Made by a program: the position numbers and the translations under genes. Positions 18,086 through 25,738 of a stretch of DNA of 64,000 bases are shown in pieces. A model generated the notes under the pieces. The model was not told the origin of the DNA and ran no database searches. It was given only the letters and a program-made list of their open reading frames with translations. Source of the DNA: Allocoprobacillus halotolerans. Lineage in GTDB: Bacteria; Bacillota_I; Bacilli_A; Erysipelotrichales; Coprobacillaceae. The stretch's first letter is position 1, and every line of letters begins with the position of its first letter. The stretch is from contig NZ_CP101620.1 of the NCBI RefSeq assembly GCF_024399475.1, positions 496,001 through 560,000 of the forward strand, read 5' to 3'.

Positions 18086-18696
18086 CTATTGCTTTTGACT
18101 TTCCATAATAAATTTATTAGCTTCTGCCAATGAATCATAACCATAAGCCTGAACAGTATTCGTTAAAATCTTTTCAATAAGATTTTCATGATTTTGTGCC
18201 ATTCTTAAAATCATTTGACCATATACATAAAGTGTTTCATCACTATAAGTCATTAATTCTCCTCTTAAATAAGTTTCAAAAGATGTATCATCTTTTTCAT
18301 CCTGCATAGAATAGGTTAAACGTGCTTGAGATAAAAGATAAGGATATTTTTGATTCATTTCTTCACGCATTGAAACTTCAATATCACATAAGGTTTGAAT
18401 CAAAGCTCTTTTTTGTTCATCAACTTGTGGGAGTTGATCTTGAATCGTTAAAAAATAATCTGGATCCGTATATTCCATCATATAAGCATATTTTTCCATC
18501 ACTGGATTTCTTTTCATCTTTTGAGCATTTTTTAAATCCTGTAAACAGGCAACTTGTACCTGTTGATCAAAAGCGTCAAATTGACTTTTTCTTTGTAAAT
18601 AAAATGTTTCAAAATCGTCCTGACAACTGGCACGTCCTTCAATATGTTGAACTTGTTGAAAAAATCCCATTCTAATTGTACAATTTCATCACTCAT
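18086..18696 (-). CDS. DUF4125 family protein (frame broken near start)
   Basis: A soluble, helical protein of about 203 residues with the DUF4125 pattern EGRASCQDDFETF, NPVMEKYAYMMEYTDP and a YVYGQMI segment. The true N-terminus starts at ATG 18696 (MSDEIVQLEWDFF) and is joined to the main frame by one missing base in the A run 18660-18665. This ATG overlaps the stop of the upstream TPR-DUF4037 gene, which carries its ribosome binding site (GGAGGG). The two families are commonly neighbours, suggesting they act together. Function is not known. Confidence 0.8.
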
Positions 18697-20446
18697 TTTT
18701 TATCCCTCCATGACATGTTTGAATCGTATCTTGGCATCTTGAATTTTTTGCATGACAAGATGAGCATGTGTATCCAAAAATCATCCTGACTGTCAGATAA
18801 TGCTTGTCGCTGCAATTCACCAATCACCATTTGACTTATTTTTTCAATAATAATTACTTTTTGATCATCTAAGTTAATTCCAACTTGATAACCTTGCCAC
18901 CTAGATAATTGATTGGGTAATTGAACCAGTTTCAATAAAAGTTCTCCTACAGCTTGTAAAGATTGGCAATCTTTGAGTCCATAATAACTCCATTTATAGT
19001 AGGGTTTATATTTTTTATTCAGCAAATAAACAACTGATAATGTCTGATCAATAAATTCATTTAATGCGAGACTTGCTGCGACTTCGTCTTGCCTTTGCAT
19101 ACATCTGGCATAATTATATTGCCCAGACTGTGCCATTTTGGCAAGAGCTCGTGCTATTTTTTTAATACGAACATCTTCAGGAAATGTTTTTAATTGATTT
19201 CTGATTTCTGTAACTTGTCCATAATAATCGTCAAAAATTCGGCCATTGGTACAAGCTAACAAAGCATTTTCATCAGCATATAACCATTCTTCTAAAGTAT
19301 GTGGAATCTTTTGTAAAAACTGTTCAAAAAAACTATTGATTTCAAAAACACCGACACGACCTTGGCCATGTAAAGAAGTTAATCGCTTGACACCCATAAA
19401 TTCTTTTGGTAACTGTTCATAACTTGCCTGTATTTTTTGTCCATATTGTTGATAAATATCTTGAGGCAACCAAATACAAAAACCTGGTCCAAAATCATGG
19501 TCATGAGAAATTTCATCATCATATCCTAAACAATCAGATCCCATCCCCATCAGTCCAATAGCCATATATTGACGTATATGCGCATATTCATTTTCTATCA
19601 TTGGATATCCATATTGTCGATAAAAAGCCTCACACAAATCTAAACCTTTAAGTGTTTTCATTTCTTTGACAATCTTTTCTTTATTATTTAAAATAGTTTG
19701 ATAATCTTTATTCTTACCATAAACACTTTCAATTAATGCAAGCACATGATCATAAATCTCAATCGCTTGACTATAATTTTTTTCCAAATAATAAAGCTGT
19801 GCTTGTGAGGCAAGAGTCGCAAAGTAATGTGGATCATCCACTGTATATTGTTGAAATAAAGCAATTGCTTTTTGAATACATTCTTTAGCTTTATTATTTT
19901 GATGCAAGCTTAAATACATTTGTGATAAATTTGTATAAGTAATCGCCTCTTCTTGACGATAATCATCTAATTGTTCAACAATGGATAAGGCTTTTTTTGC
20001 ATTGTAATGGCCTGATGAATATCTCCCATCTCTTGATATAAAAGACTCAAATTATTATAAAATGCACTGTATAGCTCATCATTTGGCAATAAGTATTGTT
20101 GATAAATCTTTTCTGTTTTTTGATATAAGTCTAAAGCTTCTTGATAACGTCCTTGCACACGATAAAATGTTGCGATATTAATATAAGAAGTCGCTCCATC
20201 AATAGTTTGTTCCCTACCACTCATAGCAAGAATATTCAAAATTTGTGTTGCAATTTGATTACCCAATTGAAATTGGGAAGTCACACGAAAATAACCAATC
20301 ATTTCATTCAATAAAAACAAAATAGCTAAGTCATCTTGATATTCCATTGCTGTATTGATTTGTTCTAGTAAAAAAGCATAAGCTTGATCCAATTGATTTG
20401 TTGCATACAATTGATCCAATTGTTTTTGTAATTCTGGTATCGTCAT
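18693..20446 (-). CDS. TPR protein with C-terminal DUF4037 nucleotidyltransferase-like domain (frame broken)
   Basis: One long gene read in two frames. The N-terminal half (about 1-250) is a series of TPR helices with repeats such as ATFYRVQGRYQEALDLYQ; the C-terminal half is DUF4037, with the minimal nucleotidyltransferase-like motif GSDCLGYDDEISHDHDFG. Frame breaks lie at the T run 19992-19998 and possibly at 18776-18780, where one more base would give an alternative end at about 18700. ATG 20446 follows AAGGAG. DUF4125 follows directly. The combination of a scaffold repeat and a nucleotidyltransferase fold suggests modification of a bound partner, but no substrate is known. Confidence 0.78.
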
Positions 20447-20465: not shown

Positions 20466-20488
20466 AAATAGACACAATGTGTCTATTT
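20466..20488 (-). terminator. Terminator at the end of pflA
   Basis: AAATAGACAC and GTGTCTATTT form a perfect 10-bp stem around a 3-base loop, overlapping the last codons of pflA and followed by a T-rich stretch on the minus strand. Confidence 0.75.
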
Positions 20489-21229
20489 CGTCAATGCATC
20501 TTTCATTCCTTTTAAAACAACTTCTCTGGCTGCAATAGCATCCTTTTTATCTAAAGGTGGAATCCCTTCTAATGGATAATCCATACCCAAATTCTTATAT
20601 TTCGCAATACCCATTGTATGATATGGTAATACATCCAATGCTTTGACATGTTTTAATGTAGCGATGAATTGTCCTAAACGATATAAGTATTCATCATTTT
20701 GTGTAATTGTAGGTACAACCACATGGCGAATCCATATATCAACACCTTTATCATCTACATATTGAGCAAATTTTAAAATCATATCATTAGGCTGTGCTGT
20801 TAATTTTTTATGTTCTATTGGATCAATATGTTTAATATCCAACATAATTAAATTAGTTGAAGCCAACAAACGATCTAATTTTTTTAAATAATCAGGATTT
20901 TCATGAAATGTAATTCCTGAAGTATCTAAGCATGTATGAATATTTTGTTCACGACATTTTTCAAATAATTCAGTTAAAAAATCCAACTGCATCATAGGTT
21001 CACCACCTGTACAAGTGATTCCCCCATTCTTATAAAATTCTTTCTTTGTATTATATTCCTTTAAAATATCCTCAACTGTCATTTGATTGCCAACGTTTGG
21101 TTTCCATGTATCTGGATTATGACAATATTGGCAACGCATTGGACACCCTTGAAAGAAAACAACAAAACGAATTCCTGGACCATCGACAGTTCCACAACTT
21201 TCTAAAGAATGAATATACCCTTTCATCAT
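20483..21229 (-). CDS. pflA: Pyruvate formate-lyase activating enzyme
   Basis: A radical SAM enzyme of 248 residues that installs the glycyl radical on pyruvate formate-lyase under anaerobic conditions. The CxxxCxxC iron-sulfur motif is GCPMRCQYCHNPD (Cys29, 33, 36), preceded by the GTVDGPGIRFVVF signature of PFL activases, followed by the GGEPMMQ SAM-binding segment. It follows the pfl genes but is separated by a terminator, so it may have its own promoter. The start may be 21229 or the next codon 21226; GGTGAG precedes both. In this genome its target Gly is on a separate small protein. Confidence 0.95.
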   Translation of the reverse strand: MMKGYIHSLESCGTVDGPGIRFVVFFQGCPMRCQYCHNPDTWKPNVGNQMTVEDILKEYNTKKEFYKNGGITCTGGEPMMQLDFLTELFEKCREQNIHTCLDTSGITFHENPDYLKKLDRLLASTNLIMLDIKHIDPIEHKKLTAQPNDMILKFAQYVDDKGVDIWIRHVVVPTITQNDEYLYRLGQFIATLKHVKALDVLPYHTMGIAKYKNLGMDYPLEGIPPLDKKDAIAAREVVLKGMKDALTK

Positions 21230-21300: not shown

Positions 21301-21328
21301 AAAAGAAAAGGTGCCTTAAGCACCTTTC
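21301..21328 (-). terminator. Terminator after the glycyl-radical gene
   Basis: AAAGGTGC and GCACCTTTT form a strong stem with a short loop on the minus strand followed by CTTTTTT, just past the stop of the 80-residue glycyl-radical gene. Confidence 0.85.
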
Positions 21329-21337
21329 AAGTCTCAA

Positions 21338-21580
21338 TTACATTGCTTCGTGGAATGTACGAGAAATAACATCATCTTGTTGTTCTTTTGTTAATTTAAC
21401 AAAGTTAACAGCATATCCAGAAACACGGATTGTTAATTGTGGATATTTTTCAGGATGTTTTTGAGCATCAAGTAATGTATCTCTGTTTAAAACATTAACA
21501 TTTAAATGATGTCCTCCTTTTTTAGCATATGCATCTAACATTCCAACTAAATTTTCAACTTGTTGTTCACTTGTAGCCAT
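21338..21580 (-). CDS. grcA: Stand-alone glycyl-radical domain of pyruvate formate-lyase (GrcA-like)
   Basis: An 80-residue protein equal to the C-terminal end of an ordinary [40 protein letters not shown] and [10 protein letters not shown]. The radical Gly is Gly55 in RVSGYAV. In enterobacteria a similar autonomous protein repairs oxygen-cut PFL, but there PFL also has its own domain. Here the large subunit at 21816-23891 lacks it, so this protein is expected to be an obligatory subunit and the substrate of PflA. It has a strong AGAGGAGG site and starts 14 bases after the preceding stop. It is complete and not frameshifted. Confidence 0.9.
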
Positions 21581-21594
21581 GATTATATCCTCCT

Positions 21595-21801
21595 CTAATA
21601 TTCATCATCATCTTCCATTGGCAAATTTGGAATCTTACAAGCAGTATCACCACTATCGCAATCCATCTTTGACACAACAGAGATTTCTTCCATTTCAATA
21701 TGAGCATCATCGTTCACTTTCACATTAATATGACCTGAACCACTGCTCATGCGACCATCCAGCATTTTGACTAATTCATCAATTTCTTTTTGAGTAGCCA
21801 T
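21595..21801 (-). CDS. Small acidic paralogue of the glycyl-radical protein, without the radical loop
   Basis: A 68-residue protein whose first half ([27 protein letters not shown]) matches the start of the 80-residue glycyl-radical protein beside it ([26 protein letters not shown]). The RVSGYA radical segment is absent. In its place is a short tail with two Cys ([13 protein letters not shown]) and an acidic end (MEDDDEY). It lies between the PFL core and the glycyl-radical gene with gaps of 14 bases each and its own start. It is probably a duplicated, diverged copy. Function is unknown; it could dock at the same surface of PFL as the radical domain. Confidence 0.8.
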
Positions 21802-21815
21802 GTTTACACTTCTTT

Positions 21816-23891
21816 CTATTCTTCAATATTTCCGTTTTTGATTGATTCGATATCTAAGTCACCAGCGAAAACTTGATCATCTTTTCCTAAAGCACCAGGG
21901 ATAACAGTGAATGTATTTGAAATACCATCTTGTGCATCTTTGAATGGTAATTTAGCAACTGATGATAATGAAGAAATTGCACCATGAGAATCTCTACCAT
22001 GCATTGGGTTAGCACCAGGAGCAAATGGTTGACCACCTTTTCTTCCATCAGGTGTATTACCAGTAGCTTTACCATATACAACGTTAGAAGTAATTGTTAA
22101 AATTGAAGTTGTAGGAACACTGTCTCTATAAGTATGATGAGAACGTACCATATCCATGAAAGTTTCAACTAACCAAGTTGCGATTTCATCTACTCTGTCA
22201 TCATCGTTACCATATTTAGGGAAATCTCCTTCTACTTCGTAATCAACAACAACACCATCTTCATCTCTAATACATTTTACTTTAGCATATTTGATAGCTG
22301 ATAATGAGTCAACAACAACTGATAAACCAGCAATACCAGTAGCAAAGTAACGTTTAACTTCTCTATCATGTAATGCCATTTGAATTCTTTCATAAGCATA
22401 TTTATCATGCATATAGTGAATGATATTTAATGCATTAACATAAACACCAGCTAACCAAGACATCATATCTACATATTTAGATTTAACATCTTCGTAATCT
22501 AAGTAGTCACCTTCAACTGGTCTGTATTTAGGTCCAACTTGTTTCTTAGTTTTTTCATCAATACCACCATTGATAGCGTATAATAAACATTTTGCTAAGT
22601 TAGCACGTGCTCCAAAGAATTGCATTTCTTTACCAACTCTCATTGAAGATACACAACATGCAATAGCATAGTCATCACCATGAGTGACTCTCATTAAATC
22701 ATCATTTTCATATTGAATTGATGAAGTTTCAATTGAAGTTCTTGCACAGAATGCTTTGAAGTTTTCTGGTAAACGAGTTGACCATAATACAGTCATGTTT
22801 GGTTCTGGAGCAGTTCCTAAGTTAGATAATGTATGTAAGTATCTAAATGAAGTCTTAGTAACCATATGACGTCCATCAACACCAACACCACCGATAGATT
22901 CAGTTACCCAAGTAGGATCTCCTGCGAAAATTGAGTTATATTCAGGAGTTCTTGCGAATTTAACAATTCTTAATTTCATAATGAAATGATCAATAAATTC
23001 TTGGATTTGTTCTTCTGTGAATAATCCTTTCTTTAAGTCTCTTTCTACATAGATATCAATGAATGTAGAAGTACGTCCTAAAGACATTGCTGCACCATTT
23101 TGTTCTTTAACTGCACCTAAGTATCCAAAATATAACCATTGAATAGCTTCTTGGCAGTTAGTTGCTGGTTTAGAAATATCAAAACCATATTTAGCAGCCA
23201 TTTCTTTTAATTCACCTAAAGCTCTAATTTGTTCACTTAATTCTTCACGTAATTGGATAACTTTTGAAGTCATTCTTTTTTGAGTTGTAGCAAATTGATT
23301 TTTCTTATCTTCAATTAATTTATCAATACCATATAAGGCAACTCTACGATAGTCTCCAATAATACGTCCACGTCCATAACCATCTGGTAAACCAGTGATA
23401 ACGTGTGAAGAACGACAAGCTCTAATTTCAGGAGTATAAACATCGAAAACCCCTTGGTTATGTGTTTTTCTGTATTCTCTGAAGATATAAGATACTTCAG
23501 GATCTACTTTATATCCATTTGTTTCACAAGCTTGTTCAGCAATACGGATACCACCAAATGGTTGTAAAGATCTTTTAAAAGGTTTGTCAGTTTGAACACC
23601 AACGATTTTTTCTTTTGATCTATCTAAGTATCCGGCATCATGTGAAGTTAATGTAGATACGATTTTTGTATCCATATCTAAAACTCCACCAGCTTCTCTT
23701 TCTTGTTTTGTTAAATCCATAACTTGTGCCCATAAATCTTTTGTGTTTTGAGTAGGACCTGCCAAGAAAGAATCATCACCATCATAAGGTGTGTAGTTTA
23801 ATTGAATAAAATCTCTTAAATTCACTTCCTTGTTCCATTTCCCTGCCTGAAAACCATCCCAGGCATCATTCCATTTTTCTTTAAATGTCAT
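21816..23891 (-). CDS. pflB: Pyruvate formate-lyase catalytic core lacking the glycyl-radical domain
   Basis: This 691-residue protein matches PFL from the start ([16 protein letters not shown] equivalent, [36 protein letters not shown]) to the [19 protein letters not shown] segment, and carries the catalytic pair Cys412-Cys413 ([10 protein letters not shown]). It converts pyruvate and CoA to acetyl-CoA and formate. Typical PFL has about 750 residues and ends in the RVSGYA radical domain; here the frame stops about 70 residues short, after [11 protein letters not shown], and the missing part is encoded by a separate gene downstream. No frameshift is seen at the junction, and the next gene has its own start. 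Confidence 0.93.
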
Positions 23892-24530: not shown

Positions 24531-25738
24531 ATGGAGCGAATCAAAAAACTCTGTTATGAACAACCCTTGATTTGTATCATTTGTATTTTAGCATGTATCA
24601 GCTGTTTTGCAATTTTAAGTGCAACTCCCATGATTTCTAATAAAGTAGGTAATCCCACAACATTATGGTTTAAACAAGCTACGTTTTATGTAATTTCTGC
24701 CATTATGGTTTTTATCATATATAAAATAGGAAAAGATCAGATATATGATAAGATTTGGATTATTTATTGGACATTGATGATTTTATTAATTATTCTTGCC
24801 ATTGAACATTTGATTTATACAAGATTATGGCCTGAACATCATATTATTCCTATTGTCAATACCGTTGGTGGAGCCACTTCATGGTATAATTTACCTTTTT
24901 TAGTTTTCAGCCTTCTGAATTTATGAAGATTGCGATTGTCATTGCATTAGCGAGAATCACAAAAGAACATAATGATTATTATTTAATTCATACAACTGAA
25001 ACAGAAATCAAATATATCTGGAAATGTATGAAAGTTGTCATTCCTCCTGCCCTGCTTGTTTTACTGCAAAATGACACGGGTGTCGTTTTGATTATATTGG
25101 TTGGTGCTGCTTTTGTTATATTTTCAAGTGGTTTAAGAAATCAATGGTTTATCTTTGGTTTTAGTTTGGTTGGTGTTATCTTAGCTATTGGTATTTATTT
25201 ATTTGTTTATCAGCCTGATATTTTTGAAAAACTTTTGAGTTCGCACCAAGTTGATCGTTTTTATGGTTGGCTTGATCCTGAAGGAACATATAATAAGGAA
25301 GGATTTCAATTATTTAATTCTTTATTATCCTATGGTAGTGCTGGTTTATTTGGACATGGTTTTCAATCTGTTATTAAAGTTTTTCCTGAAGCACAAACAG
25401 ACTTTATCTTTGCAGTTATTTTAACAAATTATGGTTTTATTGGTGGTTTGATTACCATTGTCGCTATTATTGCTTTAGATATTATTATTTTAAAAATTGG
25501 ATTAGACTCTACAAATCAACAAGATAAATTTATGACTATTGGTATTATTGGTATGTTGTTGTTTCAACAAATTTGGAATATGGGAATGATTTTGGGACTC
25601 TTACCAATTACGGGAATAACTCTCCCATTTATTTCTTATGGTGGTTCATCTTTACTTTCTTATATGATTGCAATAGCATTATTTATTGATATTAATTCAC
25701 AAAACAATATTATGAAAAATAGATCTATCATTAGTTAA
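24531..25738 (+). CDS. rodA: RodA/FtsW-family peptidoglycan glycosyltransferase (frame broken)
   Basis: A polytopic SEDS protein of about 402 residues that polymerises peptidoglycan with a partner class B penicillin-binding protein. Family landmarks are WYNLPFLVFQPSEFMKI after repair, the LLQNDTGVVLI segment (the family's essential Asp), and GITLPFISYGGSSLLSYM near the end. One T is missing from the run at 24904-24907, splitting the gene. ATG 24531 follows GAAAGGAGC. RodA rather than FtsW is suggested by length and the lone position, not proven. Confidence 0.87.

Follow-up and report, generated by a model that had tools for sequence, protein, structure and literature searches.

Organization of the split pfl locus

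The window analysed here, a stretch of 64,000 nucleotides of the Allocoprobacillus halotolerans genome, contains a split PFL, with the catalytic domain in a core gene and the radical domain in a gene of its own. The core gene (21816..23891, (-)) encodes a protein of 691 aa that matches Pfam PF02901 and positions 1-667 of TIGR01255; it ends ahead of the radical domain, and its tail has no cysteine. The active-site cysteine pair of the core, C412-C413 (22653..22658, (-)), corresponds to C418-C419 of E. coli PFL (PMC12338860). The radical subunit (21338..21580, (-); 80 aa) was assigned to NCBIfam GrcA3 with 166.5 bits against a cut-off of 158. It carries Gly55 in the loop RVSGYAV and contains no cysteine. 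Between these two lies a third gene (21595..21801, (-)), which has an ATG start, encodes a dithiol protein of 68 aa and is separated by 14 nt from the core stop codon and by 14 nt from the radical gene. The pflA gene for the PFL-activating radical SAM enzyme (TIGR02493, 295.5 bits) is located at 20483..21229 (-). A terminator-like hairpin was found between the radical gene and pflA (21306..21328, (-)), one of 2 such sites found where 1.4 were expected by chance.

The core and the radical subunit together account for TIGR01255 in full (1-667 and 662-744) and for E. coli PFL (residues 4-682 and 681-759). The initial annotation had considered the third protein as a possible spacer restoring a part of PFL between the two domains. 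This reading is contradicted, since core and radical subunit already span all of PFL.

Two other genes of the window may be interrupted. An FtsW/RodA-like gene (24531-25738, (+)) was present as two overlapping ORFs of 131 and 271 aa, possibly owing to a frameshift, and a TPR-type protein beside pflA (18693-20446, (-)) was present as two adjacent ORFs (159 and 408 aa) and may be split. Besides the split PFL, the same genome (C1) encodes four more glycyl radical enzymes, all with the radical domain fused (L001, L002, L004 and L006).

Relationship of the third protein to the radical subunit

BLASTP aligned the third protein with the radical subunit of the window with 13 of 30 residues identical (pairwise E 3e-6). 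Profile-profile comparison of the two gave a probability of 97% and an E value of 9.4e-11 over 34 columns, and the alignment stopped after the strand. Residues 2-30 matched NCBIfam GrcA3 with an E value of 2.9e-4, and at 20.9 bits the match lay below the family cut-off of 158; a Pfam search with the third protein returned zero matching models. The docking helix and the HLNVNV strand of the GrcA kind are present in its sequence, and the radical loop RVSGYAV with its glycine is absent. The strand is followed by C48-x6-C55-xx-P (Cys48 codon, 21658..21660, (-); Cys55 codon, 21637..21639, (-)) and an acidic tail, the whole protein having 17 acidic and 6 basic residues. These comparisons support the view that the third protein is a paralogue of the docking part of the radical subunit. 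They also bear out the initial description of a protein that shares helix and strand with the radical subunit, has lost the radical loop and has two cysteines and an acidic tail.

GrcA3 and GrcA (YfiD; NF038360, TIGR04365) resemble the third protein in their N-terminal helix, their GHxNVxV strand and their partnership with a PFL core. They differ in that the third protein has the Cys pair and acidic tail where GrcA has the radical loop and glycine. AlphaFold2 predicted a helix at residues 4-20 and a short strand at 28-31 for the third protein alone, with low confidence after the strand.

The second cysteine of the third protein and the radical glycine are both residue 55 of their proteins in the window. 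C55 lies 31 residues after H24, and Gly55 of the radical subunit lies 30 residues after H25. The second cysteine follows the histidine by 29-33 residues in about 73% of family members, with a mode of 31; in members with an insertion this distance is 37-42 and the match in spacing is broken.

Conservation and selection of the third-gene family

A single-sequence search located the third gene in 22/98 relatives belonging to 13 genera and two families, and the gene order core-third-radical was found in all 22 wherever the contig reached. A profile search extended the family to Lachnospiraceae, Oscillospiraceae (Ruminococcus) and other Bacillota, including 40/150 species of a Lachnospiraceae sample, defined as the GTDB family to which the Cuneatibacter caecimuris genome belongs. 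The search profile includes the Cys motif, and helix and strand alone score enough for listing, as radical subunits did; part of the genomes surveyed were incomplete assemblies. Nearly every copy was found in the core-third-radical arrangement. Three copies stood apart from any pfl core (L259 in G537, L260 in G664 and L261 in G541). G541 gave zero PFL matches and is possibly an incomplete assembly.

The motif C-x(4-6)-[A/S/C]C-xx-P was present in 73/73 distinct homologues analysed and in 23/23 clusters at 55% identity, compared with 0.3% of shuffled tails. Three copies found later depart from it: L234 and L236 stop directly after C-x2-C, and the spacing in L235 is wider. TGA or TAA codons within some matches were flagged and checked for selenocysteine or truncation; that of L181 is a normal stop, and L234 and L236 genuinely end at C-x2-C.

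Comparison of the third gene with those of relatives gave dN/dS of about 0.03-0.14, so that purifying selection is strong where computed. These values refute the notion that the gene is a relic of a radical-gene duplication without function of its own. The protein is indeed a truncated paralogue, as a remnant would be, but its cysteines are kept over long distances and the gene is retained even at a distance from the core; the chance that it is a mere relic is negligible. Conservation of the three-gene order and of both cysteines, which the initial annotation had proposed to check, held well beyond the strain, and the occurrence of the gene in 22/98 relatives and 40/150 species of the Lachnospiraceae sample disposes of the notion of a strain-specific gene.

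NCBIfam searches with 28 members returned a partial GrcA3 match in 24/28 and nothing else, and zero models of Pfam or NCBIfam covered the family. Judging from its sequences, the third protein is a real, conserved family. We found no literature on split PFL or on the third protein among open-licence papers, and by that coverage the protein is undescribed.

A cysteine module in cis or in trans

Split cores were found in 59 species of the Lachnospiraceae sample, and 38 of the 59 have the third gene. All split PFLs of this sample that lack it (21/21) have instead an acidic core tail with two or three cysteines, several of them in divergent forms such as DCACCEP and GCAACETGG. A Cys tail is fused to the core in five Erysipelotrichales as well. 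The split PFL of G046 has no third gene, and the C-terminus of its core reads ...GDLDIDLCDCTQSACQIPNLTEGIEKE; Cys-tailed cores are likewise present in G057, G110 and G085, with a degenerate form in G119. Conversely, 64/65 cores accompanied by a third gene have no Cys tail, the exception being L028. The third gene of G537 and of G664 is distant from the core, yet the core tail there is still free of cysteine.

This complementarity between a Cys module carried in cis, as a core tail, and in trans, as a third gene, is the main new finding of the analysis; the core-fused module had been overlooked in the initial annotation. The helix and strand are altogether missing from the Cys-tailed cores, so the cysteines and the acidic part are the common denominator of the two forms. 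By this comparison, what seems essential is the Cys pair with the acidic tail.

In a quick tree of the cores, tailed and three-gene cores fell into one clade with an SH-aLRT support of 100, with five fused PFLs inside. The cis and trans states alternate on this tree with at least 11 changes, of which the well-supported branches alone force only two. The fused PFLs nested in the split-PFL clade (L188, L190, L193, L197 and L199) give the impression of a radical domain that was re-fused or swapped.

Erysipelotrichales also have split PFLs of a second kind, in which the core stops at LGK(D/E) and neither a Cys tail nor a third gene is found. At these loci (L029, L123-L125, L141-L149 and L151) only a few codons separate the core from the radical gene downstream, which in some cases is in frame with it past a single stop. 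The existence of such two-gene PFLs indicates that a split PFL can do without the module.

Structural comparisons

Two structures of split-PFL cores from 2026 parallel these forms. PDB 38la ends in LGKED, as do the tail-less two-gene cores, and the tail of PDB 38lb contains PDCAC and resembles the fused Cys tails described above. Sequence searches of the PDB with the third protein and its profile gave chance hits only and zero matching chains. A read-through chain of core, third protein and radical subunit (L113), for which the alignment (A3) comprised the loci whose genes share one frame, was modelled with AlphaFold2 at a mean pLDDT of 49.7, which was low even for the PFL core.

Possible role of the third protein

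We propose that the third protein is a dithiol partner of the split PFL, acting in trans to guard or re-reduce the active-site Cys pair; we give this reading a probability of about 0.4. When the radical subunit is separate, the core barrel with its Cys pair would be open whenever the subunit is away. The helix and strand in common with the radical subunit suggest that the third protein docks at the vacant radical-domain site. The positions of C55 and Gly55, 31 and 30 residues from the histidine, would then bring the flexible C-x6-C loop to roughly the place that the radical glycine takes in the docked subunit, beside C412-C413. There the dithiol could shield the active-site thiols or re-reduce their disulfide, presumably with the help of an electron donor, and the third protein would leave on docking of the activated radical subunit. 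In species with a tailed core, this dithiol and acidic module would work in cis on the core C-terminus. PFL cysteines are not known to become oxidised during turnover, which counts against this model, and the need for a reductant is suggested by the exposure of the active-site thiols. Among the readings of the initial annotation, those of a placeholder and a redox-sensitive lock fit best on the sequence evidence, as C55 is as far from the common histidine as the radical glycine.

The main rival reading is that the third protein is an assembly factor recruiting the radical subunit, staying on the core together with it, their strands paired, and aiding its binding or activation. It is drawn by analogy with oxygen-cleaved E. 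coli PFL, in which the duplicate-strand region, residues 696-733, is required for YfiD binding and rescue (PMC8683613). The third protein would be the same PFL region supplied in trans, and the arrangement of the genes in one operon with short intergenic gaps is consistent with such a role. However, the Cys-tailed cores have neither helix nor strand, which argues that these are not the indispensable part, and recruitment leaves the conserved Cys pair without explanation; we regard it as unlikely. A lock or radical quencher would account for the Cys pair and its radical-loop spacing. On contact with oxygen, the dithiol would form a mixed disulfide or donate an H atom, and PFL would be shut off safely. 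The evidence for it is identical to that for the dithiol partner, and sequence does not separate a lock from reduction or protection; we consider it quite improbable.

The Cys pair, within one subunit or across a dimer, might also bind Zn or an Fe-S cluster with a stabilising or regulatory effect on the enzyme, by analogy with the small cluster-binding subunits of other glycyl radical enzymes such as benzylsuccinate synthase (BSS; PMC12590467). Like the third protein of split PFL, the BSS beta and gamma subunits are small proteins that accompany a glycyl radical enzyme, and a third cysteine in some third proteins would suit a metal site. The BSS subunits, however, have [4Fe-4S] HiPIP-like folds (PMC12590467), whereas no such fold is predicted for the third protein. 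Against the four ligands of an Fe-S small subunit, most members have two cysteines only, at a spacing of 2 to 9; three occur in many and four in one, and nothing else ligand-like is conserved. A metal site is very unlikely.

A functional parallel to the proposed dithiol partner may be found in ribonucleotide reductase (RNR). The C-terminal tail of class I and monomeric class II RNR is flexible and bears a Cys pair that reaches the active site and re-reduces its disulfide (PMC5704485). The third protein likewise has a conserved Cys pair on a tail that is flexible as judged by low pLDDT only. The E. coli NrdA C-terminus is CESGACKI, and the third proteins L234 and L236 also end at C-x2-C. Both enzymes perform thiyl chemistry at the active site, and in tailed split PFLs the flexible acidic tail with its dithiol is in cis, as in RNR. 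An RNR-type pair is further defined by receiving its electrons from thioredoxin or glutaredoxin. The likeness is short and may be one of resemblance rather than homology. The pair of the third protein, mostly C-x6-C, has xxP and 10-15 residues behind it and lies on a separate protein, and PFL has no obligatory disulfide. It is conceivable, if doubtful, that a glycyl-radical docking arm has turned into a stand-alone dithiol arm, with an RNR-like Cys pair, interchangeable between cis and trans, that keeps the thiyl-radical site usable.

PFL, which is sensitive to oxygen, has a central place in the fermentation of gut Lachnospiraceae and Erysipelotrichales. Many gut bacteria produce it in two pieces, a core and a carrier of the radical; of the Lachnospiraceae species sampled, about two fifths have a split PFL, each with the third protein or its fused equivalent. 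The third protein or tail is thereby named as a missing component for reconstituting split PFLs, and the functional parallel between PFL and ribonucleotide reductase becomes directly testable. The conserved Cys pair may protect the opened active site of the split enzyme, and the third protein points to a way in which an anaerobe may cope with a radical active site that is open.
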